From positions 1,820,252 to 1,884,251 of the forward strand of contig OZ037841.1 in NCBI GenBank assembly GCA_964035575.1: a stretch of DNA of 64,000 nucleotides. Direction: 5' to 3'. The position numbers and the translations under genes are program-made. This stretch comes from Rhynchopus sp. YZ270_cl-10. Its lineage: Eukaryota > Euglenozoa > Diplonemea > Diplonemida > Diplonemidae. The notes under the pieces are model-generated. The model did not search any database. It worked only from the letters and a program-made list of their open reading frames with translations, and was not told where the DNA came from. This document shows, piece after piece, positions 3,829 through 25,462 of the stretch (position 1 is its first letter; each line of letters begins with the position of its first letter).

Positions 3829-6783
3829 ATGATGACAACGAGAACCTCGTCATGGTGCACACAACAGCTGTCCCTTCTCCTCCTCCTTGCCTGCACGACA
3901 GTCCCACCTGCAGCAGGGGTGCCACAGCAGCCGATCAGAGTCATGGCAGTGCTCTCCACCCAGACACCCGTCACCCCACACGGTGCATATGGTCCAGTGT
4001 CAGCCTGCATGCAGATCACACCTAGCTGCAAGGGCGGGCTTCCTCCACTTCACGCATGGCTGCGGCAGCAGCGGTCTGACGCACGAGGCAGCGTCTTCCT
4101 CACTGGACCTGACACCAAAAGTCGTTTCATTCTTTCGTACCCTTCGCAGTATCTTTTCAACCTTGAAGCCTGGCGACGACTTGGTGTTGACTTTGGAGTG
4201 CTCCAAGACGAAACGTTTGTGACGATGGACGGTCGTGCTGATGTTGCGATACAGTTCCTGGAGGCGGCTCACGTTCCCATGATTGCGTCAAGCATGATGT
4301 CTGACAACACATTTACTATGTTCTACGGTCTCACCGAGCGGATTCACTACAAAACCATTGATGGTGTAACTATCGCGACGATTACACTCTGGTCTGATGT
4401 ATGGCAGGGAGGCACATTTGGCTTCTTCCGTCACGCAGTCATCCTTCCTGTTGTCTGCAAACGTGCCCGTGCACGTGGTGCACAACGTATCGTTGTCTTC
4501 ATTTCTGGTTCCACCTCCGGTGCTGACGACCCCACCATCTACTCACAGTACGACATTGATGTTGCGGTATTTACCTTGTTCGCTGGAGAGACCATCAAAA
4601 CCAATGGGACGACCATATACAGGACAGGGCCTGATTATGGACTGCTGTCGGTGAGCCTTGTGCAGGATGGTGCAGTGTGGACGGATTCGTTTGAGGCAAT
4701 CAGTCTCAACACACCACCTGCAGGATACGACACGGCTGTGTTTGCTGCGGACCAGGCCTGGGCACAGCTCGCGTTGGACCAGGCGAATGCGAACAACGTT
4801 GCTCTCACTGTGTCCACTGCAGCGCTTGACCCGTCCACTGGCCCAGACGGTGCTTATCTCTGTGCCCTGTACGAATGCCACATGGGACGTATGGGGTGTG
4901 ATGCAATATATGAATGGGCCACATGGGCCGATGTGGTGGTAACTGTGGGTGGGTCCTTCAGAGGTCCTGGGTGGCCGGCCGGCCCAGTGACGAACGGCGA
5001 CATCTATGCGGGGAACCCGTTCACAGATTTGATGTGCACACAGAACTACACAGGTCCAGGGTTGTTGCGTATTTTGGAGCAGGGTCTCAACTTCACAGCT
5101 TCTGACGGGACGAAGCCTGAAGGTGCAAGCCATTCGTACCTGCAGGTGGCGGGGTTGCGATTCAGGTACAACACACTCCTGCCGCGGCAGCAGCGTGTCA
5201 CGGCGGTGGAGGTCTTTGACAAGGAGCTGGAGGAGTACGTTCCCTTGAGCAGACGCCGCACCTACTCGGTGGTCACCATCCAGCACCTCCTCCGTGGTGC
5301 TGACGGCTACGGAGACAGTCTTGGCGACCACCAACCAGGCTCACAGGTGTGCCACACGAGCACCACAATTGAGGTGTTCATTGCCTACCTGAAGCGCCAG
5401 AGCACCTACACACCACACATTGACGGGCTCTCTATTAACGACTTCAGCGGGACATGGATGAACCTCTTGAACAAGACACGTGAGGACTGCACAGTGGACG
5501 AACGCTTCTTGGCTGAGTGGAGCGACTGCGAGCCGTGTGAGCCAGGCTTCTGGCATCCCAACGTTGAGAGTGAGTTCTGTGTGGAGAAGCTTGCGACTGT
5601 GAAGGAGTCAGGAGACGGTGCGCCTATTGGTTTGATTCTTGGTGTCGTGTTTGGTGTGCTTGTGCTGCTTGCGATTCCTGTTGCGTGGAAGATGACAGAG
5701 AAGCAGCGCCGCATCAACGCACTCTTCAACAACAACAAGATTGCTGAGGAATGCGCCGTTGCGGTTGTGGAGCTGCGTCTCTCGGACCTGGATTACTTAC
5801 TGGAGCTGGACAACCCGAACAAAATCCAAGCAGCCTTCATCTCCATTGTGAAGCAGCTGAAGGTGTACATGGCGTTCATGCCAAAGACTCTCCTTGCTGA
5901 CCGCCAAGACGCGAATGATTCCACCAAGAACGACTCAGCGGCAGCATCTGACAGTTCGTCTAACTATAGCAAGTCGTCTGGTCAGTCACGCCAGAAAGAT
6001 CAGGTCAGGCAAGCAACAAACTTCACAAAGCGCAAAAGCATTTCGATGTTGTGCCTGAACAGCAGAAACCACACTGCACTCTGCGATAAGTCGGACAGTG
6101 CAGGTGTGGTGCACACAGCACTGATTGAGAACTTCACCTTCACTGTTGCGACACACAAGGGTGTGTCCGAGCCTATGTGTGGCGACCGCCTTGTGGCATC
6201 GTGGAACACTGCCATCGACCGTGCGGGGCACTCCGCGTTGTCGTGTGCCGCAGCACATGCATTGGTTGAAAAGCTCACAGACCCGAACACAATGTCATTG
6301 CCCGACGGGTCAGTGATCACACCGAACATTGGAATTGCTTCAGGAAAGGGACTCTTTGGTTTGTTTGGCGGCACGGCAACAAAGAAGTACGACGTTATCG
6401 GGAAGGTGCTGCCGTCTGCAACGATTCTGATGCTTCTGAACAAAGAGCACGAGACGCACATCCTCGTCACTGCGAAGGTTGCAGAGGCTGTGGGCTCTCT
6501 TTACTTTTTGCGCATTGTGGACTACGTGCACTACGCGAAGCTGGATCGGGCGAGCTTTATCTTTGAGCTGTGTGAGCGCAAGGAACAGGATGAAGGTGAC
6601 GAGTGGATGTACACATTGGACTCACACGACAGACGTGACCCTTACCTTGTATGCAACGATACATGGAGGCTGCTGGTCAAGGAGGGCAGACTCCCGAAGC
6701 AGGAAGCAGGGATGAGTGAAAAGCTGCTCTCGATAGTGAACCCGAACTACGTAGCACCGTGCGCTTCGCTGAATCTCTTGTAA
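3829..6783 (+). CDS. Receptor with 5'-nucleotidase-like ectodomain and class III cyclase-like cytosolic domain, copy 1
   Basis: 984 residues. I start at the ATGATG at 3,829; the in-frame TTG at 3,805 is not a credible start. Residues 1-30 are a signal peptide. Residues 35-290 follow the order of the 5'-nucleotidase metallophosphatase domain, and 390-500 match its C-terminal domain (GNPF at 395-398; YSVVTIQHLLRGADGYG around 479-495). A Cys-rich stalk (DCEPCEPGFW) precedes one membrane helix (about 599-620). The cytosolic part has a conserved helix (FISIVKQLKVYMAFMP), a variable Ser-rich linker (694-735) and a class III cyclase-like domain (740-930) with CGDRLVASW and KKYDVIG. The nucleotidase metal-binding motifs are absent. 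In the cyclase domain the first metal Asp is Asn744, Asp786 is kept, and the transition-state Asn/Arg positions are Pro862 and Ile866. Probably a plasma-membrane sensor, perhaps of nucleotides or nucleosides; enzyme activity is doubtful. Confidence 0.85.
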   Translation: MMTTRTSSWCTQQLSLLLLLACTTVPPAAGVPQQPIRVMAVLSTQTPVTPHGAYGPVSACMQITPSCKGGLPPLHAWLRQQRSDARGSVFLTGPDTKSRFILSYPSQYLFNLEAWRRLGVDFGVLQDETFVTMDGRADVAIQFLEAAHVPMIASSMMSDNTFTMFYGLTERIHYKTIDGVTIATITLWSDVWQGGTFGFFRHAVILPVVCKRARARGAQRIVVFISGSTSGADDPTIYSQYDIDVAVFTLFAGETIKTNGTTIYRTGPDYGLLSVSLVQDGAVWTDSFEAISLNTPPAGYDTAVFAADQAWAQLALDQANANNVALTVSTAALDPSTGPDGAYLCALYECHMGRMGCDAIYEWATWADVVVTVGGSFRGPGWPAGPVTNGDIYAGNPFTDLMCTQNYTGPGLLRILEQGLNFTASDGTKPEGASHSYLQVAGLRFRYNTLLPRQQRVTAVEVFDKELEEYVPLSRRRTYSVVTIQHLLRGADGYGDSLGDHQPGSQVCHTSTTIEVFIAYLKRQSTYTPHIDGLSINDFSGTWMNLLNKTREDCTVDERFLAEWSDCEPCEPGFWHPNVESEFCVEKLATVKESGDGAPIGLILGVVFGVLVLLAIPVAWKMTEKQRRINALFNNNKIAEECAVAVVELRLSDLDYLLELDNPNKIQAAFISIVKQLKVYMAFMPKTLLADRQDANDSTKNDSAAASDSSSNYSKSSGQSRQKDQVRQATNFTKRKSISMLCLNSRNHTALCDKSDSAGVVHTALIENFTFTVATHKGVSEPMCGDRLVASWNTAIDRAGHSALSCAAAHALVEKLTDPNTMSLPDGSVITPNIGIASGKGLFGLFGGTATKKYDVIGKVLPSATILMLLNKEHETHILVTAKVAEAVGSLYFLRIVDYVHYAKLDRASFIFELCERKEQDEGDEWMYTLDSHDRRDPYLVCNDTWRLLVKEGRLPKQEAGMSEKLLSIVNPNYVAPCASLNLL

Positions 6784-9261
6784 CAACGTTACTACTCGAT
6801 ACCAGATCACACCAGCGAACACCGGCTACAATAGCCTCTTCTTTTATTGTTTGCGTGAGGCCGAGGTCCGCCTTGTCACTTTTTTTACGTGGTGAAGAGT
6901 ACCACCGGCATCACCTCGTCTATGTGTGCACGAGGCTGCCACTCTACAGTGTGCTGTATGTGTATACGTTGTTCAGTGTGTCTTAAATAGCGATCAGCGC
7001 ACCTGCCATCCCGGGCGTGTTGTGTATACGAAAGGGTTTTTGATTTCAAGTAGCCTTTGTTTTTCTTTTCTTAACGTACCCTGCGTAGCCTGCGCTATTC
7101 TGTGTCGCGTAGGTTATCCCCATCCCCAGTAATTAGGTGAGGTCTGAGGATAGTTAGCAGATGCTGCACCCCGTTCGCTACGGTATGGTGGGTCAGCTGC
7201 ATCAATAGCTATTCCTCTTTTTCTTCTTCTTCAGTTATGGCAGGGTTTCCACAATCGTGAAGATGTTCATCAAAAAACGAACGGAAAAAAAGGGGGGTTT
7301 ACACCACAGCAAAAAGTTGTATTTTACACTGTGGTTACAAAGCTTTTTTGAAAAAATAGGATATATAGTGGAGGACACTCTAGGTGGCTACACTAACACA
7401 ACCAAGTATTCAAAATAGGAAAACTCCCGAAAATAGGTTCGTCACCTTTGGGAAACCCTGTTCATGGTGACTAAGTAAGTTGTCGTGCTTAGATGCATAC
7501 CATCTTTTCTTGTTCTCATTCTTCACAAAGTAAGAGTGTGTCAATTTTGCTTTCTTTCTAAAAGGGATTCTTTATTTTGCTTTACCATTTCAGCTTAGCT
7601 TCATCTTACCAACTTTTCTCTCCACAACTGGAGGGCTATCTTCCCTTGCCGCGTGCTCGAGGCAAATCACTGTGTTTAACAGTTACCTACAACACAAGCA
7701 AAGTGACGACATCCCGAACATGCCGTCTCGGCGCTGCAGAGGGGGCTTCAGCTGGTGTTCACGCACAAATAGTGGGGCATGTGTGCACGTGTTCAGAACT
7801 ACTTTCTTTTCAAGGTTCTATTCATTGATGTGCCCAATGAAGAATGAAGAGTTGGTAAGTTGAACCTTGAATGCTGTCATGAACCCATTTCACCCTCCCC
7901 TCCCCCTCGAGGCTCTCTCCTCCACATGAACAATGTGGCGTTCGGTGCTCTCCTCACATACTTAGCAATCGGGTGTGCTTTGCAACACTGTTGAGGATGT
8001 GCATGTCAAAAGCCTTGTTTTTGCTGCTATTTTCTTTTTTCCTTTTGCGCCTTTTTGTCACGGACGTCTCATTGATGGGACATCCTTTTAAGAAGGCACC
8101 TTTTTTTACTCATTCGTGTTTGATGTTTTTGTTCTTTATGCATGTGTACATTGTAGTGTTTGCAAGTTTGAGAAAATATATCCGTTTCGCTTGATCAGAT
8201 CTCGACCGTTTGTTGCATTGCACGCTTCCACTTTTTTTTTTTTTTTTGAAAAAATTGATTGTTTCCAGCACACGCGGACTGTGTCAGTGTGTGATGGTAT
8301 ATGATTATTGCCTGAAGTACAGAAAAATGGGAGTGTCGGTGGCGGAGCACAAAAGAGGTAAAATGAAAAACATATCGGGTGGGGTCTCTGATCTAATCTG
8401 TGCGACGAATATATTTCCCCTATCACGCCATGTTTGGCCAGGGCCTCTCCAGCGCGTCAGTTGCAAAATTTTTGATAACTTGTGATCCCCGCCAACCCAC
8501 ACTCCCTATTTGTCCAAAAATTAGTTCACCAAAGGTTCCTGGCGAAGCCACGGTACGCAACATTTCAAAAATTGCGCTTAAAAATTGCACATTAGTCAAA
8601 CTATGTTATGGGAAAGGTGGGATACTTGCGCCGCAGGCGCACAGTTCGTTACTTTTTTCCTTTTGCCACCTTCTTTTTTCTCACTTCTTGTTGGGTTCCA
8701 CGAGCTCCGTCCGTCAAATGGTGGGGTCACAACGCGTCGCTTTTATTCTCAACGATTTTTTTTCAAACCCAATTTTTTTGGACCAAATTAAAGAGGTTTC
8801 CGGAGCGTATGGTGCAATACAAATATCACAGAATATACATTACACACTATACGCACAAACAAAACGTCAGGAAACGACTCACACTGCCATTTTATTCACT
8901 GCTTGTGTATCGCGTCTTTTTAATTTTTATGCATGACTAAGCACATGCAGCTTAGGTACATCTGACCAACGTTTATCTTTATTTTTGCGAGAAAAAAAAA
9001 TACATCATCATTTTGTTTATTTCCAGTGGACAACCAAACGGTGTTAAGAGCAGGGCTTGCTTCTGCAGGAACTTCAATCGCGAAGTTTTCAGTTTTGGCA
9101 GTAACAAAAAATGCTCAACTCAAAAGCGACACTTGTTTGGGATATCCAAATATGCAGTTGAGGAGCAGCACCAACACAGCTTCCTCGCTTCTTAGTGTTG
9201 CTGGCAGCTCCAGGAGGAAAGCCAGCATTTTAAAGTAGTTTTTTTTATCAGACACCTTCAT
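6784..9261. other. Intergenic stretch between receptor copies 1 and 2 (left part)
   Basis: No gene was supported. 7,916-8,060 is a diverged dispersed repeat (relative at 2,700-2,890). At about 8,626-8,640 a TGCGCCGCAGGCGCA hairpin is followed by a 'cgttac/gctac' T-rich segment that recurs at 9,383-9,480 with the same hairpin and a following 'ggggtcac' word, so these two are copies of one short repeat. The 178-codon open frame at 8,400-8,936 spans one of these copies and has no protein-like features. Confidence 0.55.
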
Positions 9262-9663
9262 CAGGGGCTTATATATTTTGTAAAGGTTTTGGGGGAAATT
9301 TGGGGTGGTCCGAAGAATTGACAGCACGGTGACCACAATCGGTTTTTCCCGTAAGGGACCCCTTACAACCTCAGGGAGGGTTGCGCCGCAGGCGCATGGT
9401 ACGCTACTTTTTTTCTCTCGCCATGCTGCATGCTTCCTTTTGCTTCGGCGTTTGACCAATTGAGTCGCGTGCTGGCTGTGACGGGGTCACGTCTTCATGA
9501 AGTCATTTCTGGTCACTCTCAGAGGACTCTCGAGGCTCGTGTGAGGTACTAAAAAACCCCTATTTCCCCCCAAGAATTATCATTTTTTTTGGACGAAGAA
9601 CTGTTAATGCCTGGTGAAAACCTGGTCAGGTTGACCAGGACGTACCTTATATATAAGCCCCTG
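9262..9663. mobile_element. hAT-like short non-autonomous element (putative)
   Basis: Inverted 14-bp ends CAGGGGCTTATATA (9,262-9,275) and TATATAAGCCCCTG (9,650-9,663) bound 402 bp without coding capacity. The 8 bp on the left (ACCTTCAT) and right (ATATTCAT) agree at six of eight positions, compatible with an aged 8-bp target duplication, and CAG-start termini are typical of hAT elements. Inside, near the right end, is a CCTGGTCA-GGT-TGACCAGG hairpin, the same palindromic word that is clustered at 15.2 and 17.6 kb. Confidence 0.5.
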
Positions 9664-10949
9664 ATATTCATATTTCAAGCCTCTTACACTCTCAGTGCTT
9701 TCTGTTCTCCTGAATCGAAAGCACATGAATTAAAGTTCTATGTATCTTCATGAGTGCCTGTTGCATGTAGCGATCAAATGCATGCAACGTTATCCTCGGA
9801 ACATACTTTCACGCATACCGTTGCTGGTGTTTGTGCCTTGTGTGGGCGAACATCTGCTCTGGTTCATATCTTTTTTCTCTTTTTTTATATATCTCTTTTC
9901 ATGCATTGGACACCCAGAAAAACCGTCTGTAAGTATCCCCGCCTTTGGGTTGCATAGAGTAGAGTGCAGAACCCGCCTTTTGTGTTGCGTCTGGTACCAC
10001 AGAACTGGTAGATATTCTTCTCTCAACAAAGCATTTTTTTTTTTGAAATTTCATCGTCTGTGTGGTTCAGCATTGAACTGCCGCGAAACAAACGTATCTT
10101 TCCCGAAATAAATGTTAGAGAGATGAGTCCGTGTCTTTTTTTAAATTATGCTCTGGTCTTTTTGTTATTTTTGTCTTGGTTTTTTTTTGCGCGGCTGGCA
10201 ATTATCGTCTCAGCAAAGTTCCTGTCTCGAGATAATTAGTGTTTCAATAAATTGGTCATCGATTATTGCTGTCGCCTTTTGCGGTAAGGTCCCAGCGCTC
10301 CACTGTATTCTTCATAGTGCTCCTTTGTTGGAGGTGACTAACTAATCAGCAGAGTCGTAGCATCGCCACAAGATTGTTTATTTCTCGTTCTTCTGTTTGT
10401 TTTCCTTTTTCTTGTGCATAAAGAACAGCACGTCCTCAGTGAAGGATGTGCTTTGCACTGTCGGGGAAATGCACATCAAAGCCTTAGTGTTCCTTTCTTT
10501 TTGTTCAAAGCGCCCTTCAAAAAAACGATTTATTTGCTCTTACGTGTGTGTTTTGTTGCCTTTTGAGATCTTGTTGTTTTCCCAAAAGACGCGATATTTT
10601 GTTTAGATGTGTGTGCACGAGATGCACATTACATTGCTCAGCACATTCACGATTTCTTCAGAATTAATCGACCTCTTGGTAAATCCATTATAATTGTTCA
10701 GTGTCACACCCCAGGATCACGCACCCCAGTATACAACCCCTCACAGACGCTATACCTTCCACCTTTTCCTTTTCCTTTCCTTTTTTTTTTTTACACATTA
10801 TACTTTCCCTGCATACATCAGCGCAACAGTTTTACATACTAAACTTTTACACAATATATTGCAATACCGAATACCTATTTTTCATTTTCTTTCGTTGTCA
10901 TCTAAGCAGTTCATTTTGTGACATCTTTTTACTGTCTGCATCTTTTACT
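9664..10949. other. Intergenic stretch upstream of receptor copy 2
   Basis: AT-rich with long T tracts; no gene or element boundaries recognised. 10,424-10,505 ('aggatgtgctttgcactg...gcacatcaaagcctt') is a third, weaker member of the dispersed repeat seen at 2,700-2,800 and 7,916-8,010. Confidence 0.5.
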
Positions 10950-11020
10950 TTCTTTAGCTCTACTAAGCTCAGCTCATCTTACCACATTTGCTTCTTTCTT
11001 TTGAACCCATCATAAACCAC
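10950..11020 (+). promoter_or_regulatory. Conserved leader upstream of receptor copy 2
   Basis: It shares CTTTCTTTAGCTCTACTAAGCT with copy 1 and TTGCTTCTTTCTTTTGAACC plus CATCATAAACCAC with copies 3 and 4, directly before ATGATG at 11,021. The leader therefore combines blocks found separately in the other copies, like the coding regions themselves. Confidence 0.45.
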
Positions 11021-13392
11021 ATGATGACAACGAGAACCTCGTCATGGTGCACACAACAGCTGTCCCTTCTCCTCCTCCTTGCCTGCACGACAGTCCCACC
11101 TGCAGCAGGGGTGCCACAGCAGCCGATCAGAGTCATGGCAGTGCTCTCCACCCAGACACCCGTCACCCCACACGGTGCATGGGGTCCAGTGTCAGCCTGC
11201 ATGCAGATCACACCTAGCTGCAAGGGCGGGTTTCCTCCACTTCACGCATGGCTGCGGCAGCAGCGGTCTGACGCACGAGGCAGCGTCTTCCTCACTGGAC
11301 CTGACACCAAAAGTCGTTTCATTCTGTCGTACCCTTCGCAGTATCTTTTCAACCTTGAAGCCTGGCGACGACTTAGTGTTGACTTTGGAGTGCTCCAAGA
11401 CGAAACGTTTGTGACGATGGACGGTCGTGCTGATGTTGCGATACAGTTCCTGGAGGCGGCTCACGTTCCCATGATTGCGTCAAGCATGATGTCTGACAAC
11501 ACATTTCCTATGTTCTACGGTCTCACCGAGCGGATTCACTACAAAACCATTGATGGTGTAACTATCGCGACGATTACACTCTGGTCTGATGTCTGGCAGG
11601 GAGGCTCGTTTGGCTTCTTCCGTCACGCAGTCATCCTTCCTGTTGTCTGCAAACGTGCCCGTGCACGTGGTGCACAACGTATCGTTGTCTTCATTTCTGG
11701 AACAGCCTACGGTGCTGACGACCCCACCATCTACTCACAGTACGACATTGATGTTGCGGTCTTCACTTTCGTCCCTGGAGACACCATCAAAACCAATGGG
11801 ACGACCATATACAGGACAGGGCCTGATTATGGACTGCTGTCGGTGAGCCTTGTGCAGGATGGTGCAGTGTGGACGGATTCGTTTGAGGCAATCAGTCTCA
11901 ACACACCACCTGCAGGATACGACACGGCTGTGTTTGCTGCGGACCAGGCCTGGGCACAGCTCGCGTTGGACCAGGCGAATGCGAACAACGTTGCTCTCAC
12001 TGTGTCCACTGCAGCGCTTGACCCATCCTCTGGCCCGAATGGCGAACTTCTCTGTGCCGTGAACGAATGCCACATGGGACGTATGGGGTGTGATGCAATA
12101 TATGAATGGGCCACATGGGCCGATGTGGTGGTGACTGTGGGTGGGTCCTTCAGAGGTCCTGGGTGGCCGGCCGGCCCAGTGACGAACGGCGACATCTATG
12201 CGGGGAACCCGTTCACAAATTTGATGTGCACACAGAACTACACAGGTCCAGGGTTGTTGCGTATTTTGGGCTGCTTGCGATTCCTGTTGCGTGGAAGATG
12301 ACAGAGAAGCAGCGCCGCATCAACGCACTCTTCAACAACAACAAGATTGCTGAGGAATGTGCCGTTGCGGTTGTGGAGCTGCGTCTCTCGGACCTGGATT
12401 ACTTACTGGAGCTGGACAACCCGAACAAAATCCAAGCAGCCTTCGTCTCCATTGTGAAGCAGCTGAAGGTGTACATGGCGTTCATGCCAAAGACTCTCCT
12501 TGCTGATCGTGTGGGGAGTGATGAAGAGAAGAATGAGGGATCTGATAGTTCATCCAAGTTCAGCAATAGCAGAAGCAAGCAGTCTTCTTTAAAGTCACGC
12601 CAGAAAGATCAGGTCAGGCAAGCAACAAACTTCACAAAACGCAAGCACATTTCGATGTTGTGCCTGAACAGCAGAAACCACACTGCACTCTGCGATAAGT
12701 CGGACAGTGCAGGTGTGGTGCACACAGCACTGATTGAGAACTTCACCTTCACTGTTGCGACACACAAGGGTGTGTCCGAGCCTATGTGTGGCGACCGTCT
12801 TGTGGCATCGTGGAACACTATCGTCGACCGTGCGGGACACTGTGAGCGTGCGTGCGATGCAGCACATGCATTGCTTCAAAAGTTCGGGGACACCAAAACC
12901 TGTGATGAGCAGGCAGTGATTACACCGAACATTGGAATTGCTTCAGGAAAGGGACTCTTTGGTTTGTTTGGAGGCACGGCAACAAAGAAGTACGACGTTA
13001 TCGGGAAGGTGCTGCCGTCTGCAACGATTCTGATGCTTCTGAACAAAGAGCACGAGACGCACATCCTCGTCACTGCGAAGGTTGCAGAGGCTGTGGGCTC
13101 TGCCTATTTTGTGAGCATTGTGGACTACGTGCACTACGCGAAGCTGGATCGGGCGAGCTTTATCTTTGAGCTGTGTGAGCGCAAAGAAAATAAAGACGGA
13201 GACGAGTGGATGTACACATTGGACTCACACGCCAAGAACGACCCTTACCTTGTGTGCAACGATGCATGGAGGCAGGTGATCAAGGACGGCACTCTCCCTT
13301 CGGCTGAAGGGCTGAGTGAAAAACTACGTTCCATTGCTGCGGATGAGAAGCAGCAGTATATTGCGCCGTGTGCTTCACTGAATCTCTTGTAA
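11021..13392 (+). pseudogene. Receptor copy 2, broken by a 586-nt internal deletion
   Basis: The first ORF (11,021-12,301, 426 residues) encodes signal peptide and ectodomain to residue 416 (GPGLLRIL) and then ten shifted residues and a stop. Aligned to copy 1, the sequence equivalent to 5,078-5,663 is missing: the rest of the 5'-nucleotidase C-terminal domain, the Cys-rich stalk and most of the membrane helix. 586 is not a multiple of three, so the frame shifts. The stop TGA overlaps an ATG (ATGA at 12,298-12,301) that opens the remaining cytosolic frame (12,298-13,392, 364 residues, starting MTEKQRRIN), which is intact and has its own sequence variants. No homology is visible at the breakpoints. 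The two halves may be dead, or expressed as a secreted ectodomain and a soluble cyclase-like protein. Confidence 0.85.
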
Positions 13393-15300: not shown

Positions 15301-15339
15301 TCCCAGACCCACGCAGTACCACGTCGCAGTACTACGCAA

Positions 15340-16282: not shown

Positions 16283-16470
16283 CTGTAAAATCGTTTAATT
16301 TGTCACCTACAATTCTTCCGTCCCTAATACAGAAAGTATCACTCAAGGCTGTACTTTAAAAAGTAGACACAAAAAATCGCCCGACGTAATGTGAGGGGGT
16401 GACAAAATTCATTTATGACTGATATTTCAACTCGGTTAATTAGGGTGTGACAAATTAAACGATTTTCCAG
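16283..16470. mobile_element. Tc1/mariner-like MITE, 188 bp
   Basis: Ends read CTGTAAAATCG on the left and CGATTTTCCAG on the right; the inverted match continues for about 24 bp (through TTTAATTTGTCAC) with one mismatch. Both ends are flanked by the dinucleotide TA (16,281-16,282; 16,471-16,472), the target site typical of Tc1/mariner elements. The interior is non-coding and contains the word ACAGAAAGTATCA also seen at 472. Confidence 0.7.
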
Positions 16471-16570
16471 TATTAAAGATGAGGTTAATGAAGAAAGTGG
16501 TAATAACTATGCATTGCCGTGAAATAAGGTAGCCTTTTTTTCACGCCACAGCGGATTTCCTGCTGCACTA

Positions 16571-16633
16571 ATGGTTCCCAAGCGAAGCGAGGGGACCATG
16601 TATAAGTATTTACCGAGCGAAGCGAGGTGAATA
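16571..16633. repeat. Two consecutive hairpins with the same loop
   Basis: The first hairpin pairs ATGGTTCCC with GGGGACCAT (16,571-16,599); the second pairs TATTTACC with GGTGAATA (16,607-16,633). Stems differ but both loops contain GCGAAGCGAG. No coding context. Confidence 0.65.
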
Positions 16634-17574
16634 TTATGTGCAGCAGGTAACGAGCACGCCTGCAGAAGTTTAAAAACGGCTGCCTTATGACAAGCAATAT
16701 GTAAGTTTATTCCGATTACACAAAGTAGGGGTAGTCTGCAAGCACCAGCCAAAAAAGAGTGAGATCGGTGATCAGGGAAAACAAACACCACCACACAACA
16801 ACTTGACAACCACTAAAGGAATGAATCTACACTAGTGCCTGACAGTTAAACATATTTACGTACCTTGTCTTCATCGTAACCTGCGCCTTCGCTGCTGTCA
16901 AGGTGCCTTCTCTGGGTACAGTGCCCAGTGTCCAGTACAGAAAAAAAAATTCGTCTAAAAAATCGAGTACGCAAAACCACATTTTAGACATTTTAGACCC
17001 CTACAGAGGCTCAAAAGTGCCAAATTTTGCTTTTATGGCCTCAAATCGTAAAAATTAGCTACTACAGTACACGGGGTATGACCGTATTTTGGCTGAAATT
17101 TTGACTTGAAAATTTTTTTCAACATTTGCCCAATCTGAGGTTTTCTTTGGATTTTTTGGGCCATTTTATGACCTACCACGGCCAGTTTTGGGCAAAAAAG
17201 TTATTTTTTCTTTGGTCAAAAATCGCCTTGTCTAACCACTGTTTCGTGTAGGATTGTTCAAATACGTGTATTTGGTGAAACCCCAGATGGTCAAAACACC
17301 CGAATTTTGCGTTTTTTTGCATTTTTCGGTGCCCCAAGACCCAACCCAGAGGCCAAATTTTTCCCGAAAAAAAAAATTTTTTTTTTTGAGATTTTTCGAT
17401 TTTTTGCTAAGGTGATGCCCATACAAAATGTACAGGGTGCACACAAATAGCCGTGGAATAAATTCTAGATGCTCTAAACTGCTCGTAAGTGCCTTTATTT
17501 GCACTTTTAGCCCAGTTTTGAGGTCATATGGACCCACCAAGGGCATTTTTGTGTTGTCAAAAAAAAAAAAAAAA
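16634..17574. other. Interior of composite element, no gene seen
   Basis: AT-rich sequence with many 'ttttgg', 'aaaatt' and 'tttttgac' words similar in flavour to the 349-bp satellite at 46-48 kb, but without an alignable repeat. The 104-codon minus-strand frame at 17,232-17,546 is low-complexity and not called. Confidence 0.4.
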
Positions 17575-17748
17575 CCTGGTCACAGTGGCCAAATACCTGG
17601 TCACTGACCAGGTATACCTGGTCAATACCTGGTCATTGACCAGGTATACCTGGTCATGACCAGGTGTACCTGGTCAATCTGACCAGGTCAAAACCTGGTC
17701 ATATTACCTGGTCAACTGACCAGGTATCCTCTGACCAGCGCACGGTGT
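17575..17748. repeat. Cluster of GACCAGGT/ACCTGGTC palindromes, right
   Basis: About fifteen half-sites, several paired around TAT, TG or AT spacers, in the mirror arrangement of the left cluster. The outside flank (CTGACCAGCGCACGGTGTA) is the reverse complement of the left flank. Confidence 0.8.
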
Positions 17749-17869
17749 AGGCAAGAACCTCCTTGCGAGTCTTCTCCCCTGAGAACTGCGTTTCCCCCAG
17801 AGCCCTAGCAAAGTCCAGTGCCCCTTGCACGGTTTTACTCACTTTTGCCATTTTTGTATTTGTTTTCAT
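17702..17869 (-). pseudogene. Short protein fragment running into the right palindrome cluster
   Basis: A minus-strand frame from ATG at 17,869 (second ATG at 17,851) encodes about 55 residues: MAKVSKTVQGALDFARALG, then GEKTRKEVLAYTVRWSE, and terminates inside the GACCAGGT cluster. Composition is clearly protein-like and resembles a short helix-turn-helix N-terminus. The peptide AYTVRWSE also occurs in frame at the outer edge of the left cluster (about 15,143-15,166, plus strand), so both clusters interrupt the same coding segment. Likely a truncated transposon-encoded DNA-binding protein; family not identified. Confidence 0.35.
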
Positions 17870-18262
17870 CCTGTTGTCAAGTAAGTTGTGTGGGAAATTA
17901 TGGGAAAATGTAGGTTTCCTATAGGAACCTATAGGAAACCAAGGGTACCAATTTTTACCGTTGGTTTATTTTGCTCTCGGGGGGTATCCATCATATTTCC
18001 AATTGGACTTTTTGCTCGTCGTTTTTTTTATTGAACCCAGAAACTTAACTCTGAGTTCATTAAAAAAAAAATCGGGGAGAAAGTCCCAGTAGAACCCAGA
18101 TGAAATAAAAATAAGGACCCCAGGTTACCTTTTGGGGGGGGGTGGTTTATGGACTGACCCACATGTACTATTTACATTTAAATTATTTACGTGTATTATT
18201 TACATGCACGAATACTATTTACATAAAAATATGTAAACAATAGCTGTGAGGGGGGTTTACAT

Positions 18263-18789
18263 ATTTATTTTACTCTCCCCGTTTTATAGTGTTGAAAGGT
18301 GCACACGCCAAGAGAAGAATGACACCACTTCCAGGATAACACCCTGCGTTTACACTGGGTATTCCAACCACAACCCCGCACCACCTGCGAGCCATCCTCG
18401 CATGCTGGCGGCGTACTTTGGCGTGCGCTTGAGGTGCTTCTCTCAACTCCATATGAATGAACGAACAATAAAAAGAATAAAGTGATCAAAGTGATCAGCA
18501 CACACAAAAATATGCTTCTCCCCTCCCTCCTTCTTATACATATCTCGTTCTCTTCTCTCTGTCTCTAAAGAACGCCAGACGGAAAGGACCACGTGTCTGT
18601 ACATCAGCGTGTTCACCAGAAAGCGCAAAGCACTTTACATATGGACGAAATTCTAAATCAGTCTTCTGATTCAGACCAGTTTTATGCACTGAGCCTTTTG
18701 GGGGTTGTCTACACTTTCAAAAACAGGTTTTGTTTTATGTGAGCCAAGGTTTGCATTTGCTTCTTTCTTTTGAACCCATCATAAACCAA
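18263..18789. other. Intergenic stretch and leader of receptor copy 3
   Basis: No gene is seen to 18,730. The end (18,733-18,789) is the conserved leader: TTATGTGAGCCAAGG, then TTTGCATTTGCTTCTTTC and TTTTGAACCCATCATAAACC before ATGATG. The GAGCCAAGG block is shared with copy 4 only. Confidence 0.5.
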
Positions 18790-21756
18790 ATGATGAGAAC
18801 CAGAACCTCGTCATGGTGCACACAACAGCTGCCCCTTCTCCTCCTCCTTGCCTGCACGACAGTCCCACCTGCAGCAGGGGTGCCACAGCAGCCGATCAGA
18901 GTCATGGCAGTTCTCTCCACTCACATACCCGTCACCCCACACGGTGCATGGGGTCCAGTGTCAGCCTGCATGCAGATCACACCTAGCTGCAAGGGCGGGC
19001 TTCCTCCACTTCACGCATGGCTGCGGCAGCAGCGGTCTGACGCACGAGGCAGCGTCTTCCTCACTGGACCTGACACCAAAAGTCGTTTCATTCTGTCGTA
19101 CCCTTCGCAGTATCTTTTCAACCTTGAAGCCTGGCGACGACTTAGTGTTGACTTTGGAGTGCTCCAAGACGAAACGTTTGTGACGATGGACGGTCGTGCT
19201 GATGTTGCGGTACAGTTCCTGGAGGCGGCTCACGTTCCCATGATTGCATCTAGTATGCTGCCGGACAGCACATTTCCTATGTTCTACGGTCTCACCGAGC
19301 GGATTCACTACAAAACCATTGATGGTGTAACTATCGCGACGATTACACTCTGGTCTGATCTCTGGCTCGGAGGCTCATTTAGCTTCTTCCGTCACGCAAG
19401 TATCCTTCCTGTTGTCTGCAAACGTGCCCGTGCACGTGGTGCACAACGTATTGTGATCTTCATTTCTGGAACACCCTCGCCCGGTGCTGACGACCCCACC
19501 ATCTACTCACAGTACGACATTGATGTTGCGGTCTTCACTTTCGTCCCTGGAGACACCATCAAAACCAATGGGACGACCATATACAGGACAGGGCCTGATT
19601 ATGGACTGCTGTCGGTGAGCCTTGTGCAGGACGGTGCAGTGTGGACGGATTCGTTTGAGGCAATCAGTCTCAACACACCACCTGCAGGATACGACACGGC
19701 TGTGTTTGCTGCGGACCAGGCCTGGGCACAGCTCGCGTTGGACCAGGCGAATGCGAACAACGTTGCTCTCACTGTGTCCACTGCAGCGCTTGACCCATCC
19801 TCTGGCCCGAATGGCGAACTTCTCTGTGCCCTGTACGAATGCCACATGGGACGTATGGGGTGTGATGCAATATATGAATGGGCCACATGGGCCGATGTGG
19901 TGGTGACTGTGGGTGGGTCCTTCAGAGGTCCTGGGTGGCCGGCCGGCCCAGTGACGAACGGCGACATCTATGCGGGGAACCCGTTCACAAATTTGATGTG
20001 CACACAGAACTACACAGGTCCAGGGTTGTTGCGTATTTTGGAGCAGGGTTTGAACTTCACAGCTTCTGACGGGACGCATTCAGGTGCAAGCCATTCGTAC
20101 CTGCAGGTGGCGGGGTTGCGATTCAGGTACAACACACTCCTGCCGCGGCAGCAGCGTGTCACGGCGGTGGAGGTCTTTGACAAGGAGCTGGAGGAGTACG
20201 TTCCCCTGAGCAGACGCCGCACCTACTCGGTGGTCACCATCCAGCACCTCCTCCGTGGTGCTGACGGCTACGGAGACAGTCTTGGCGACCACCAACCAGG
20301 CTCACAGGTGTGCCACACGAGCACCACAATTGAATTGTTCATTGCCTACCTGAAGCGCCAGAGCACCTACACACCACACATTGACGGGCTCTCTATTAAC
20401 GACTTCAGCGGGACATGGATGAACCTCTTGAACAAGACACGTGAGGACTGCACAGTGGACGAACGCTTCTTGGCTGAGTGGAGCGACTGCGAGCCTTGTG
20501 AGCCAGGCTTCTGGCATCCCAACGTTGAGAGTGAGTTCTGTGTGGAGAAGCTTGCGACTGTGAAGGAGTCAGGAGACGGTGCGCCTATTGGTTTGATTCT
20601 TGGTGTCGTGTTTGGTGTGCTTGTGCTGCTTGCGATTCCTGTTGCGTGGAAGATGACAGAGAAGCAGCGCCGCATCAACGCACTCTTCAACAACAACAAG
20701 ATTGCTGAGGAATGCGCCGTTGCGGTTGTGGAGCTGCGTCTCTCGGACCTGGATTACTTACTGGAGCTGGACAACCCGAACAAAATCCAAGCAGCCTTCG
20801 TCTCCATTGTGAAGCAGCTGAAGGTGTACATGGCGTTCATGCCAAAGACTCTCCTTGCTGACCGCCAAGACGCGAGTGAAGTGATCCAAAAAGAAGCATC
20901 AGGAGCAGCATCTGACACTTCGTCAAACATAAGCAAGTCGTCTGGTCAGTCTCGCCAGAAAGATCAGGTCAGGCAAGCAACAAACTTCACAAAGCGCAAA
21001 AGCATTTCGATGATGTGCCTGAACAGCAGAAACCACACTGCACTCTGCGATAAGTCGGACAGTGCAGGTGTGGTGCACACAGCACTGATTGAGAACTTCA
21101 CCTTCACCGTTGCGACACACAAGGGTGTGTCCGAGCCTATGTGTGGCGACCGTCTTGTGGCATCGTGGAACACTGCCATCGACCGTGCGGGGCACTCCGC
21201 GTTGTCGTGTGCTGCAGCACACGAATTGATTGATAAGTTCACAGACCCAAAGAAGAGTGTGTTACCAGCATGGACAGCTATTACACCGAACATTGGAATT
21301 GCTTCAGGAAAGGTGCTCTTTGGTTTGTTTGGCGGCACGACAACAAAGAAGTACGACGTTATCGGGAAGGTGCTGCCGTCTGCAACGATTCTGATGCTTC
21401 TGAACAAAGAGCACGAGACGCACATCCTCGTCACTGCGAAGGTTGCGGAGGCTGTGAACTCTCTTTACTTTTTGCGCATTGTGGACCATGTGAAGTACAG
21501 GAAGCTGGAGCGGGCGAGCTTTATCTTTGAGTTGCGTGAGCGCAAGGAAAGCAAGAACGGTGACGAGTGGATGTACGCGATGGAGTCGCACGAGAAGGCT
21601 GATCCACACGCCTTCTGCAATGAGACGTGGTATGAGCTTGTCACGAATGCTAAGTACCCTACGCAGGCTGAAGGGTTGAGTGAAAAGCTGCTCTCGATAG
21701 TAAAGTCTCAGAATGACAACTACGTTGCGCCGTGTGCCTCGTTGGATCTCTTATGA
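18790..21756 (+). CDS. Receptor with 5'-nucleotidase-like ectodomain and class III cyclase-like domain, copy 3
   Basis: 988 residues from ATGATG at 18,790, same architecture as copy 1: signal peptide, degenerate metallophosphatase-like and 5'-nucleotidase C-terminal parts, Cys-rich stalk, one membrane helix, signalling helix, Ser-rich linker and cyclase-like domain. It differs from copy 1 in several ectodomain loops: STHIPV for STQTPV, SMLPDSTFPM for SMMSDNTFTM, SGTPSPGADD for SGSTSGADD, and FVPGDTI for LFAGETI. The cytosolic end carries GGTTTKKYD, AVNSLYFLRIVDHVKYRKLERASF and a C-terminus ending ASLDLL, shared with copy 4 but not copies 1 and 2. The catalytic substitutions are the same (Asn for the first metal Asp; Pro and Ile at the transition-state positions), so activity is doubtful. 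Confidence 0.85.
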   Translation: MMRTRTSSWCTQQLPLLLLLACTTVPPAAGVPQQPIRVMAVLSTHIPVTPHGAWGPVSACMQITPSCKGGLPPLHAWLRQQRSDARGSVFLTGPDTKSRFILSYPSQYLFNLEAWRRLSVDFGVLQDETFVTMDGRADVAVQFLEAAHVPMIASSMLPDSTFPMFYGLTERIHYKTIDGVTIATITLWSDLWLGGSFSFFRHASILPVVCKRARARGAQRIVIFISGTPSPGADDPTIYSQYDIDVAVFTFVPGDTIKTNGTTIYRTGPDYGLLSVSLVQDGAVWTDSFEAISLNTPPAGYDTAVFAADQAWAQLALDQANANNVALTVSTAALDPSSGPNGELLCALYECHMGRMGCDAIYEWATWADVVVTVGGSFRGPGWPAGPVTNGDIYAGNPFTNLMCTQNYTGPGLLRILEQGLNFTASDGTHSGASHSYLQVAGLRFRYNTLLPRQQRVTAVEVFDKELEEYVPLSRRRTYSVVTIQHLLRGADGYGDSLGDHQPGSQVCHTSTTIELFIAYLKRQSTYTPHIDGLSINDFSGTWMNLLNKTREDCTVDERFLAEWSDCEPCEPGFWHPNVESEFCVEKLATVKESGDGAPIGLILGVVFGVLVLLAIPVAWKMTEKQRRINALFNNNKIAEECAVAVVELRLSDLDYLLELDNPNKIQAAFVSIVKQLKVYMAFMPKTLLADRQDASEVIQKEASGAASDTSSNISKSSGQSRQKDQVRQATNFTKRKSISMMCLNSRNHTALCDKSDSAGVVHTALIENFTFTVATHKGVSEPMCGDRLVASWNTAIDRAGHSALSCAAAHELIDKFTDPKKSVLPAWTAITPNIGIASGKVLFGLFGGTTTKKYDVIGKVLPSATILMLLNKEHETHILVTAKVAEAVNSLYFLRIVDHVKYRKLERASFIFELRERKESKNGDEWMYAMESHEKADPHAFCNETWYELVTNAKYPTQAEGLSEKLLSIVKSQNDNYVAPCASLDLL

Positions 21757-22415
21757 ATAGAGTAAATGTGACACCAGCCAGCAAACGTTTAGTAGTGCCC
21801 CGGGGATATGCTACGATCGTGCTAGGCTGATAAAAGTGAGGGGGTATTGTGATGCGGTACCAGCTTAACCTATCCGGGTTTCTTTTTACACCTTCTGTTG
21901 TTGACCGCAGGGTTTTTGTGCTTTTTTCCGGGGCTGGCTCGTACCCGGGTCAGTCGGTGCCTGCATCAACTACTTGTTTCTTTTTCGCTTTTGTTTCCAC
22001 AAAAGACATCGTTGCAAAGCAAAACCTTTCCTCATATTCAGCAGCATTGATTTTTTGTTTTACGTTGAGGTTCCCACTTTTCCTTTTGTTTGTTGTCTCA
22101 GCCATCTTGTATTTTTGAGAAGTCTGGACAAAGAAACAAAACGAAAAGTGGGAGTGCCCTTCATGACGACCCTGCATATTCAAAACCTTTACAACCAAAA
22201 GATCGCATTTTCTTCATCTTTTTCTCACAGTTCGGGTTTTCTCCTCTTGTGCAATACCGGACGCAGGACATCCTCCTCCTGCTTTCCTCCTTTGGCAACG
22301 TTTTAGCACTGTAGACGGAGTTTAGGTTCAGCTGTCCAGCTCTTGTCCCTCATCCCATACCCATCCCAGACAACTTTCATTCACTTTTAGGGGTTCTTAC
22401 ACTTACACGGGTTTC
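21757..22415. other. Short intergenic stretch with dispersed repeat family A
   Basis: The 3' flank ('aatagagtaaa(t)gtgaca(c/t)cagccagca') is shared with copy 4 (25,463-25,490). From 21,876 to about 22,120 is one member of a repeat also present at 25,870-26,100 and 38,521-38,660: 'ttctgttgttg(a/g)ccgcaggg', 'gggtcagtcgg', 'cctgcat(c/t)aa' and, in two members, 'tttccacaaaagacatcgttgcaaa'. The duplicated flanks show that copies 3 and 4 arose by tandem duplication that included flanking DNA. Confidence 0.6.
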
Positions 22416-22492
22416 ATATTATGTGAGCCAAGGTGTCTCGTTCCTGTCGCACTTTGCATTTGCTTCTTTCTTTTGAACCCATCATATACCAC
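22416..22492 (+). promoter_or_regulatory. Conserved leader upstream of receptor copy 4
   Basis: It has TTATGTGAGCCAAGG as in copy 3, then an extra 'tgtctcgttcctgtcgcac' segment absent from copy 3, then TTTGCATTTGCTTCTTTC and TTTTGAACCCATCATATACC before ATGATG. Confidence 0.45.
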
Positions 22493-25462
22493 ATGATGAG
22501 AACGAGAACCTCGTCATGGTGCACACAACAGCTGTCCCTTCTCCTCCTCCTTGCCTGCACGACAGTCCCACCTGCAGCAGGGGTGCCACAGCAGCCGATC
22601 AGAGTCATGGCAGTGCTCTCCACCCAGACACCCGTCACCCCACACGGTGCATATGGTCCAGTGTCAGCCTGCATGCAGATCACACCTAGCTGCAAGGGCG
22701 GGCTTCCTCCACTTCACGCATGGCTGCGGCAGCAGCGGTCTGACGCACGAGGCAGCGTCTTCCTCACTGGACCTGACACCAAAAGTCGTTTCATTCTTTC
22801 GTACCCTTCGCAGTATCTTTTCAACCTTGAAGCCTGGCGACGACTTGGTGTTGACTTTGGAGTGCTCCAAGACGAAACGTTTGTGACGATGGACGGTCGT
22901 GCTGATGTTGCGATACAGTTCCTGGAGGCGGCTCACGTTCCCATGATTGCGTCAAGCATGATGTCTGACAACACATTTACTATGTTCTACGGTCTCACCG
23001 AGCGGATTCACTACAAAACCATTGATGGTGTAACTATCGCGACGATTACACTCTGGTCTGATGTATGGCAGGGAGGCACATTTGGCTTCTTCCGTCACGC
23101 AGTCATCCTTCCTGTTGTCTGCAAACGTGCCCGTGCACGTGGTGCACAACGTATCGTTGTCTTCATTTCTGGTTCCACCTCCGGTGCTGACGACCCCACC
23201 ATCTACTCACAGTACGACATTGATGTTGCGGTATTTACCTTGTTCGCTGGAGAGACCATCAAAACCAATGGGACGACCATATACAGGACAGGGCCTGATT
23301 ATGGACTGCTGTCGGTGAGCCTTGTGCAGGATGGTGCAGTGTGGACGGATTCGTTTGAGGCAATCAGTCTCAACACACCACCTGCAGGATACGACACGGC
23401 TGTGTTTGCTGCGGACCAGGCCTGGGCACAGCTCGCGTTGGACCAGGCGAATGCGAACAACGTTGCTCTCACTGTGTCCACTGCAGCGCTTGACCCGTCC
23501 ACTGGCCCAGACGGTGCTTATCTCTGTGCCCTGTACGAATGCCACATGGGACGTATGGGGTGTGATGCAATATATGAATGGGCCACATGGGCCGATGTGG
23601 TGGTAACTGTGGGTGGGTCCTTCAGAGGTCCTGGGTGGCCGGCCGGCCCAGTGACGAACGGCGACATCTATGCGGGGAACCCGTTCACAGATTTGATGTG
23701 CACACAGAACTACACAGGTCCAGGGTTGTTGCGTATTTTGGAGCAGGGTCTCAACTTCACAGCTTCTGACGGGACGAAGCCTGAAGGTGCAAGCCATTCG
23801 TACCTGCAGGTGGCGGGGTTGCGATTCAGGTACAACACACTCCTGCCGCGGCAGCAGCGTGTCACGGCGGTGGAGGTCTTTGACAAGGAGCTGGAGGAGT
23901 ACGTTCCCTTGAGCAGACGCCGCACCTACTCGGTGGTCACCATCCAGCACCTCCTCCGTGGTGCTGACGGCTACGGAGACAGTCTTGGCGACCACCAACC
24001 AGGCTCACAGGTGTGCCACACGAGCACCACAATTGAGGTGTTCATTGCCTACCTGAAGCGCCAGAGCACCTACACACCACACATTGACGGGCTCTCTATT
24101 AACGACTTCAGCGGGACATGGATGAACCTCTTGAACAAGACACGTGAGGACTGCACAGTGGACGAACGCTTCTTGGCTGAGTGGAGCGACTGCGAGCCGT
24201 GTGAGCCAGGCTTCTGGCATCCCAACGTTGAGAGTGAGTTCTGTGTGGAGAAGCTTGCGACTGTGAAGGAGTCAGGAGACGGTGCGCCTATTGGTTTGAT
24301 TCTTGGTGTCGTGTTTGGTGTGCTTGTGCTGCTTGCGATTCCTGTTGCGTGGAAGATGACAGAGAAGCAGCGCCGCATCAACGCACTCTTCAACAACAAC
24401 AAGATTGCTGAGGAATGCGCCGTTGCGGTTGTGGAGCTGCGTCTCTCGGACCTGGATTACTTACTGGAGCTGGACAACCCGAACAAAATCCAAGCAGCCT
24501 TCATCTCCATTGTGAAGCAGCTGAAGGTGTACATGGCGTTCATGCCAAAGACTCTCCTTGCTGACCGCCAAGGCGCGAGTGAAGTGATCCAAAAAGAAGC
24601 ATCAGGAGCAGCATCTGACACTTCGTCGAACAGGAGCAGCAGATCATCTATCTGTTCGCGTGACAAGGAGAACATTAGGCAGGCAACAAACTTCACACAA
24701 CGCAAAAGCATTTCGATGATGTGCCTGAACAGCAGAAACCACACTGCACTCTGCGATAAGTCGGACAGTGCAGGTGTGGTGCACACAGCACTGATTGAGA
24801 ACTTCACCTTCACTGTTGCGACACACAAGGGTGTGTCCGAGCCTATGTGTGGCGACCGTCTTGTGGCATCGTGGAACACTATCGTCGACCGTGCGGGGCA
24901 CTGTGAGCGTGCGTGCACTGCAGCACATGCATTGGTTGATAGGTTCACAGACCCAAAGAAGAGTGTGTTACCAGCATGGACAGCTATTACACCGAACATT
25001 GGAATTGCTTCAGGAAAGGTGCTCTTTGGTTTGTTTGGCGGCACGACAACAAAAAAGTACGACGTTATCGGGAAGGTGCTGCCGTCTGCAACGATTCTGA
25101 TGCTTCTGAACAAAGAGCACGAGACGCACATCCTCGTCACTGCGAAGGTTGCGGAGGCTGTGAACTCTCTTTACTTTTTGCGCATTGTGGACCATGTGAA
25201 GTACAGGAAGCTGGAGCGGGCGAGCTTTATCTTTGAGTTGCGTGAGCGCAAGGAAAGCAAGAACGGTGACGAGTGGATGTACGCGATGGAGTCGCACGAG
25301 AAGGCTGATCCACACGCCTTCTGCAATGAGACGTGGTATGAGCTTGTCACGAATGCTAAGTACCCTACGCAGGCTGAAGGGTTGAGTGAAAAGCTGCTCT
25401 CGATAGTAAAGTCTCAGAATGACAACTACGTTGCGCCGTGTGCCTCGTTGGATCTCTTATGA
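22493..25462 (+). CDS. Receptor with 5'-nucleotidase-like ectodomain and class III cyclase-like domain, copy 4
   Basis: 989 residues from ATGATG at 22,493. From residue 4 to about 693 the protein is identical to copy 1 as far as I can compare, including every variable ectodomain loop and the membrane helix. In the Ser-rich linker it switches to copy-3-like sequence (ASEVIQKEASGAASDTSSN), then has a private stretch (RSSRSSICSRDKENI), then a copy-2-like block (NTIVDRAGHCERAC), and ends with a copy-3 type C-terminus (TDPKKSVLPAW onward, ending ASLDLL). It is thus a recombinant of at least three paralogues. Domain order and the missing catalytic residues are as in copy 1. Confidence 0.85.
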   Translation: MMRTRTSSWCTQQLSLLLLLACTTVPPAAGVPQQPIRVMAVLSTQTPVTPHGAYGPVSACMQITPSCKGGLPPLHAWLRQQRSDARGSVFLTGPDTKSRFILSYPSQYLFNLEAWRRLGVDFGVLQDETFVTMDGRADVAIQFLEAAHVPMIASSMMSDNTFTMFYGLTERIHYKTIDGVTIATITLWSDVWQGGTFGFFRHAVILPVVCKRARARGAQRIVVFISGSTSGADDPTIYSQYDIDVAVFTLFAGETIKTNGTTIYRTGPDYGLLSVSLVQDGAVWTDSFEAISLNTPPAGYDTAVFAADQAWAQLALDQANANNVALTVSTAALDPSTGPDGAYLCALYECHMGRMGCDAIYEWATWADVVVTVGGSFRGPGWPAGPVTNGDIYAGNPFTDLMCTQNYTGPGLLRILEQGLNFTASDGTKPEGASHSYLQVAGLRFRYNTLLPRQQRVTAVEVFDKELEEYVPLSRRRTYSVVTIQHLLRGADGYGDSLGDHQPGSQVCHTSTTIEVFIAYLKRQSTYTPHIDGLSINDFSGTWMNLLNKTREDCTVDERFLAEWSDCEPCEPGFWHPNVESEFCVEKLATVKESGDGAPIGLILGVVFGVLVLLAIPVAWKMTEKQRRINALFNNNKIAEECAVAVVELRLSDLDYLLELDNPNKIQAAFISIVKQLKVYMAFMPKTLLADRQGASEVIQKEASGAASDTSSNRSSRSSICSRDKENIRQATNFTQRKSISMMCLNSRNHTALCDKSDSAGVVHTALIENFTFTVATHKGVSEPMCGDRLVASWNTIVDRAGHCERACTAAHALVDRFTDPKKSVLPAWTAITPNIGIASGKVLFGLFGGTTTKKYDVIGKVLPSATILMLLNKEHETHILVTAKVAEAVNSLYFLRIVDHVKYRKLERASFIFELRERKESKNGDEWMYAMESHEKADPHAFCNETWYELVTNAKYPTQAEGLSEKLLSIVKSQNDNYVAPCASLDLL

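Follow-up and report, generated by a model that had tools for sequence, protein, structure and literature searches.

A diplonemid receptor family that appears to join a disabled 5'-nucleotidase homologue to a degenerate class III cyclase domain

What kind of protein is encoded by an array of long reading frames in the last part of a diplonemid contig, in which a region resembling 5'-nucleotidases is followed by one resembling class III cyclases? Here we report an analysis of this array in Rhynchopus sp. YZ270_cl-10 (Euglenozoa: Diplonemea), based on a stretch of 64,000 nucleotides that is referred to as the window (assembly GCA_964035575.1, contig OZ037841.1, positions 1,820,252 to 1,884,251, forward strand). 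The window is the final 64 kb of this contig (C9) in a eukaryotic genome assembly of 152.4 Mb. Its four receptor gene copies, A to D, are arranged head-to-tail; copies A, C and D are intact, with reading frames uninterrupted from Met to stop, and copy B is broken (Table 1). The tandem receptor family proposed in the original prediction, which was made from the sequence alone, was confirmed in its arrangement and in three of its members, while copy B proved to be disrupted by a deletion. We hold with moderate confidence that the intact genes encode single-pass surface receptors derived from two former enzymes.

Ectodomain and cytoplasmic domain

The C-terminal domain of 5'-nucleotidases (Pfam 5_nucleotid_C, PF02872) was recognized in copies A, C and D (E 2.2e-21, 2.9e-22 and 2.5e-21, respectively) and in all 19 members of an alignment of relatives (A1), one of which is a cytosolic control (L026). 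Pfam Metallophos matched one of the 19; the motifs are present in the control L026. Profile A4, built from 17 members of the family with canonical cyclases excluded, matched 5'-nucleotidases in the PDB, including 2z1a (E 1.1e-27) and CD73 (6vc9, E 1.5e-20). When 21 receptor ectodomains were compared by hhalign with eight 5'-nucleotidase family proteins (six database proteins and two cytosolic-looking proteins from the same genome), they aligned over 436 columns, starting at residue 68 of copy A (Prob 100, E 2.3e-45). Each half of the ectodomain was also matched by itself (N-terminal half, Prob 96.8, E 2.6e-10; C-terminal half, Prob 99.95), so that the predicted 5'-nucleotidase-type ectodomain was recovered in both lobes. 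Chance profile matches were considered and rejected: for three further types of ectodomain encoded in this genome, the same comparison gave Prob values of at most 4.8, and no ectodomain slice exceeded 0.5 when compared with the cyclase-like domain. A fold like that of periplasmic binding proteins (PBP-like, Venus-flytrap), named in advance as the finding that would speak against this assignment, was not matched by the ectodomain in hhalign comparisons with profiles from the same genome (Bmp, Prob 3.2; SBP, Prob 0.08) and appears not to apply to the window family.

The metal-binding and catalytic residues of 5'-nucleotidases are presumably those of the motifs NDx[HY], GD, G[ND]H[ED], a lone His, and GHxH. 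In the merged alignment, the Asp of NDx[HY] is found in none of the 21 receptors and its His in one (copy C); the Asn of GNH[ED] persists in three and its His in none, and the lone His and both His of GHxH are absent from all 21. The eight controls have the Asp of NDx[HY] (8, with His in 5 and Tyr in 3 at the last position), the Asp of GD (8), the Asn of GNH (7, and Asp in one), its His (8), the lone His (8) and the two His of GHxH (8 and 8). The position of D(I)DV, read originally as lying ahead of a former GGHSH loop, is consistent with the alignment to 5'-nucleotidases, and all motifs quoted in that prediction are present in the product of copy A. An Arg and two stacking aromatic residues are what we take to be the nucleoside-holding cleft of CD73 and UshA. 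Of the cleft residues, the Arg of NGGxxR, the Phe of PF, and the Asp and the aromatic residue of Dx[FY] are present in 21/21 receptors (7, 6, 7 and 7 of the controls, respectively). On the level of sequence, the window ectodomain is shown to be a two-lobe 5'-nucleotidase homologue that has lost most of the residues required in a hydrolase.

The ectodomain ends in a stalk with four cysteines, which are invariant in 17/17 sequences of profile A4, and is followed in copy A by one membrane segment according to hydropathy, in line with the single helix that had been predicted. An N-terminal hydrophobic stretch passes the threshold in four of six sequences examined (L009, L015, L023, L024); because that of copy A falls below it, we infer, and do not observe, the export of the ectodomain to the cell surface.

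In the cytoplasmic part, Pfam Guanylate_cyc matched copies C and D below the cut-off (E 0.09 and 0.04, respectively), and copy A was not listed. Profile A4 matched class III adenylyl cyclases in the PDB (4oya and 2w01, E 3.1e-6; 1wc0, E 5.8e-6), and homology to both enzyme families is thus found in one chain, as originally proposed. The cytoplasmic domain by itself (13 sequences) matched 4oya with E 6.2e-8, and a profile of 17 such domains, six of them from sister receptors (A5), matched 2w01 (E 2.2e-14) and 3r5g (E 4.9e-14) along the domain. A further profile (A3) contained the canonical member P0010; it was rejected as the cause of the cyclase match, since A4, which contains no canonical member, still matched cyclases. 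Judged by homology, the cytoplasmic domain is a class III cyclase fold.

The catalytic set of class III cyclases is assumed here to comprise two metal-binding Asp, a base-selecting (adenine) Lys, and a transition-state Asn and Arg. These positions were read by eye on the register of the alignment of A5 with the PDB, in a total of 27 domains (the 17 of A5 and ten selected from 108 matches to the module, described below). The first metal Asp is replaced by Asn in 27/27 domains and the second is retained in 27/27; the Lys and the Arg are found in none, and the transition-state Asn in one (L011). In the ten selected copies, Asn and the second Asp are each present in 10/10, and the Lys, the transition-state Asn and the Arg in 0/10. 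The cyclase-fold output of the original prediction is thus right in fold only, because the cyclase domain of the window genes has lost its catalytic residues. For the degenerate domain, the ratio of nonsynonymous to synonymous substitution rates (dN/dS) lies at 0.28-0.63 in 14/14 pairs, which share sequences and are not independent; among the nine pairs with dS >0.25, eight have values of 0.28-0.36, and the pair L003-L004 has 0.54. The degenerate domain is under purifying selection.

Relatives, shared modules and their exchange

Copy A matched 46 places in the genome, including sister receptors that match in the cytoplasmic part only. Long open frames over nearly the whole protein and without a canonical cyclase were found at 22 of them (three on C9, four on C90, 13 on C8, and one each on C44 and C21); 19 of these frames were read and all have the degenerate domain, and the remaining three, on C8, were assigned from the match alone. 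The member on C96 has no start, and copy B on C9, the members on C17 and C11, and that at C8:1435784 are broken or fragments. A fusion or assembly artefact was rejected on account of the 22 long open frames of the same architecture and of complete EukProt transcripts.

In a database of 5.8 billion proteins, from which the best 8000 candidates were scored per search, the full architecture was found in proteins of the same genome that are identical to or contained in the loci (P0002, P0003, P0004, P0006, P0010, P0022, P0023); P0009 is a locus of the same genome with a longer start. It was also found in P0007 (ENA), which is at most 38% identical to the loci of the genome, and in P0005 and P0008, complete assembled transcripts from one EukProt data set, which are probably from another species because their identity to the loci is at most 54%. 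Outside the Rhynchopus genome and these three proteins, the other matches listed span one half only. A duplicated 5'-nucleotidase-like protein is encoded by one long open reading frame of the genome (L066, C30:1124500-1129500), in which SGDNW and GNHE are kept and GGSNS replaces GHxH.

A motif-complete cyclase (FTDI, VKTIGD, TxNxxxR) stands behind the same type of ectodomain in L022 (C62), L023 (C65) and L024 (C49); L025 (C83) has the first two motifs, and its frame stops ahead of the third. The PDB chain closest to the cyclase of L023 is GRESAG 4.3 of Trypanosoma brucei (1fx4, E 1.7e-35). L022 looks intermediate because it combines the ectodomain type of the window family, and a linker judged by eye to be shared with it, with a canonical cyclase. 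In L022, L042 and L044-L048, a further degenerate-looking, cyclase-like domain was seen by eye after the canonical cyclase. This second domain matched the output module of the window family with Prob 58 in hhalign (Prob 94 when pooled with sister receptors) and the canonical domain with Prob ~1. These values are suggestive of an origin of the window's degenerate domain from such a second domain behind canonical cyclases.

The degenerate cyclase also follows ectodomains that Pfam assigns to the Bmp type (L030, L040), the SBP type (L029) and the PA type (L032), all four of which are included in A5; PBP- and SBP-type ectodomains are found in sister receptors that share this output module. In hhalign comparisons, the linker of the window family matched the linkers of Bmp-type and SBP-type receptors with Prob 99.7 and 99.4, respectively; the match to a mixed group of five further receptors, of which some have canonical cyclases, reached Prob 86, and that to six-helix cyclases Prob 52. 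The cytoplasmic part of L040 as query gave at least 108 further matches (weakest E 4e-30; 108 of 820 candidates scored). The 5'-nucleotidase branch is absent from the 108 matches listed, and residues were checked in 14 of them (the ten selected copies, L030, L035, L036 and L040). Guanylate_cyc gave at least 150 matches in the genome (150 of 493 candidates scored).

The dN/dS of the linker could be calculated for 10 of 14 pairs, in which it is 0-0.24; that of the ectodomain and helix is 0.23-0.57 in 11 pairs and 1.0 in one close pair (dS 0.012), and is undefined in two. When compared in blocks of 60 codons, copies A and D are 99-100% identical in the first eleven blocks and 69-95% identical afterwards, and copies C and D are 99-100% identical in the last two blocks. 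Copy D is a mosaic with an ectodomain as in A and a C-terminal end as in C. Between L019 and L020, identity is 85-100% over the first twelve blocks and falls to 49-54% beyond them. When tested on the output parts of 19 members, the topology of the ectodomain tree is rejected (difference in log likelihood 682; approximately unbiased test, p 1.7e-7). The mosaics and the conflict between trees probably reflect recombination or gene conversion around the linker. On C90, four receptor genes (L004-L007) lie ~5.2 kb apart and have identical coding sequences, and their 5.95-kb stretches are only 84-90% identical to that of L004 in ungapped comparison.

Mechanism and its alternatives

We propose that the receptors work in five steps. 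The ectodomain, as its sequence shows, is a 5'-nucleotidase homologue without the catalytic His and most metal ligands, with a nucleoside cleft that is largely kept. Between its lobes it would bind, without hydrolysis, a nucleotide, a nucleoside or a related phosphorylated metabolite from outside the cell, and it is in this sense that we infer nucleotide sensing by the window ectodomain. Movement of the lobes would be relayed through the cysteine stalk, the single helix and the conserved linker, of which the existence of the linker and its sharing with sister receptors are observed. The class III domain would make no cyclic nucleotide and would regulate by pairing, most likely as a partner or competitor of the canonical cyclases, which are abundant in the same genome. 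Pairing with a disabled domain is preferred as the output because activation of trypanosome receptor cyclases needs dimerisation of their catalytic domains (PMC6027212). Finally, recombination or gene conversion within the arrays would shuffle sensor and output around the linker and create new combinations, in agreement with the pattern of identity seen among the copies.

Several observations weigh against this reading. One metal-ligand Asp, that of GD (PD or AD in the receptors), is still present in 18 of the 21 ectodomains and is lost in L023-L025; without the catalytic His it does not restore the active site. The NDx[HY] motif falls outside the region aligned by hhalign, and its loss is therefore read from the MAFFT merge alone. 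The Asn of NGG in the cleft is retained in 18/21 receptors and missing in copies A and C and the C90 copy, which represent the window clade; because of this loss, the ligand of the window clade may not be a nucleotide. In the cytoplasmic part, none of the degenerate members listed individually reaches the Pfam cut-off with this domain (L011 comes closest, just below it, with E 2.2e-4), and direct hhalign comparison with canonical cyclases of the same genome gave Prob 3.6 and 15, and Prob 54 even when pooled with sister receptors; because these single-sequence and direct comparisons are weak, the class III assignment rests on the profile searches of the PDB. The role assigned to the class III domain also has rival explanations.

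A broader, joint reading is advanced tentatively. It holds that the genome may encode more than 100, perhaps several hundred, receptors with a conserved disabled cyclase output, whose kept site (Asn, GD[RK], Asn) would read or block cyclic nucleotides, and that the arrays would recombine borrowed sensors (5'-nucleotidase, solute-binding, PA) in a kit-like manner; the window family would then be a receptor for extracellular nucleotides derived from a silenced ectonucleotidase.

We regard it as rather unlikely that the degenerate domain is a nucleotide reader or scaffold and not a regulator of cyclases, its altered pocket (Asn in place of the first Asp, the retained second Asp, the Arg or Lys next to it, and the conserved Asn) binding ATP or cyclic nucleotides in a metal-free manner. 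All 17 domains have Asn 12, Gly-Asp 53-54 and Asn 61, and R or K next to the Asp, as do 10/10 further copies, which argues for an altered site that is kept and not in free decay, whereas metal-free binding is a guess. Less probable still is that the genes form an adhesin or decoy family of variable surface proteins, whose two domains would be scaffolds only and whose array diversity would serve surface variation and not sensing. The tandem arrays, the mosaics and the gene-conversion-like homogenisation would suit such a family, but the cleft residues are conserved in 21/21 ectodomains, the linker and the degenerate cyclase are under purifying selection, and the same output is common to solute-binding-type ectodomains. 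An ordinary receptor cyclase, in which the ectodomain senses nucleotides and the cytoplasmic domain of the window genes makes cyclic AMP or cyclic GMP, would agree with the class III homology and with the motif-complete cyclases of L022-L024, but is very improbable in view of the Asn at the first metal position throughout, the absence of the Lys and the Arg, and the presence of the transition-state Asn in one of the 27 domains. For the favoured reading, that of receptors derived from two former enzymes, ligand and output are separately testable because relatives pair the same ectodomain type with a motif-complete cyclase.

The window and its place among known receptors

The features of the window are listed in Table 1. 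In copy B, ~586 nt are gone after nt 1249 of the intact coding sequence; the parts on either side overlap by 4 nt where they meet, and the frame is lost. The deleted part comprises the second half of 5_nucleotid_C, the stalk and the helix. Outside the coding sequence, copy A shares with the other copies short stretches in the 65 nt 5' of the ATG only, and no homology to them was found in the 700 nt downstream. The flanks of copies C and D have in common a 56-nt stretch upstream (79%) and a displaced 189-nt stretch downstream (84%).

Table 1. Receptor gene copies, domains of copy A and other features in the window.
Feature	Position in window	Residues	Strand	Description and basis
Copy A	3829..6783		+	Intact receptor gene, 984 aa
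Copy A, N-terminal lobe of ectodomain	3931..4833	~35-335	+	Metallophosphatase-related; D95 kept, catalytic His and most metal ligands lost; hhalign of N-half, motif counts
Copy A, 5_nucleotid_C	4861..5310	345-494	+	Pfam E 2.2e-21; cleft residues R378, F398, D492, Y494 (conservation)
Copy A, four-cysteine stalk	5488..5580	554-584	+	Ahead of membrane; C554, C567, C570, C584
Copy A, single transmembrane helix	5626..5682	600-618	+	Mean hydropathy 2.91
Copy A, juxtamembrane signalling linker	5686..5913	~620-695	+	hhalign; dN/dS
Copy A, degenerate class III cyclase domain	6025..6675	733-949	+	N744 at metal Asp 1, D786 kept, Lys and transition-state Asn/Arg lost; profile searches, alignment
Copy B	11021..13392		+	Broken; ectodomain part 11021-12269 abuts cytoplasmic part 12266-13392
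Copy C	18790..21756		+	Intact, 988 aa; 5_nucleotid_C 19828-20271; degenerate cyclase 20989-21639
Copy D	22493..25462		+	Intact, 989 aa; 5_nucleotid_C 23525-23974; degenerate cyclase 24695-25345
J-domain protein	26359-27606			One open reading frame; DnaJ_C and sub-threshold SPRY match (E 0.05)
Coiled-coil gene	28818-34000			Frame changes resemble short introns (by eye)
Subtilase	34149-37265			Peptidase_S8, E 6.7e-37; perhaps a secreted protease
Run of N	~43147-43390			Within an open reading frame
349-bp tandem repeat	46279-48686, 51892-53950			Two arrays, starts ~5.6 kb apart; CCCGCAAA-type repeats ahead of each
(CCCGCAAA)n satellite	54561-64000, 44781-45489, 50711-51102			First array at contig end

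Because of the frame changes in the coiled-coil gene, cis introns seem to occur in this genome, although the frames of the receptor genes are uninterrupted. The satellite at the contig end was found in either orientation at seven of 12 other contig ends sampled (L050, L052-L055, L057, L061; not L051, L056, L058-L060), and its polarity is opposite to that of a usual telomere, since it is the C-rich strand that runs towards the right end. At its left end (L049), C9 opens with a telomere-like (CCCATAC)n repeat and also has some units of the satellite.

Receptor-type guanylyl cyclases such as the receptor for atrial natriuretic peptide (ANP) are single-pass proteins with an active cyclase and a kinase homology domain that is a pseudoenzyme. 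The ANP receptor thus has a non-catalytic domain within a single-pass cyclase receptor, as in the window genes, but it is the kinase part and not the cyclase that is disabled. The window ectodomain has both lobes and the nucleoside cleft residues in common with CD73, UshA and the Thermus protein 2z1a; it differs from this family in the loss of the catalytic His and most metal ligands and in its fusion to a helix, a linker and a cyclase fold. The GRESAG4/ESAG4 receptor cyclases of T. brucei resemble the window genes in having a large N-terminal ectodomain, one helix, a cytoplasmic class III domain and membership of a multigene family. Trypanosomatid receptor cyclases differ in that most have two Venus-flytrap (PBP-like) domains outside (PMC6027212), and in that they are active, whereas the cyclase of the window genes is degenerate. 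The class III cyclases of Euglena gracilis and Naegleria likewise show a large lineage-specific expansion with varied sensors, their paralogue families including BLUF, NIT, HAMP and Cache1; among the sensors given in section 8 of that account there is none of the 5'-nucleotidase, Bmp, SBP or PA type, and an output that is solely degenerate is not mentioned there (PMC6366073).

No description of a 5'-nucleotidase-cyclase receptor was found in searches of the open-access PMC literature, which agrees with the earlier statement that no described receptor with this combination was known. The window family adds to the receptor-type cyclases a 5'-nucleotidase sensor fold that was not found in these searches. 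An ectonucleotidase was apparently converted to a sensor through the loss of its catalytic residues, and the family points to the cyclase fold as a widely used non-catalytic output.

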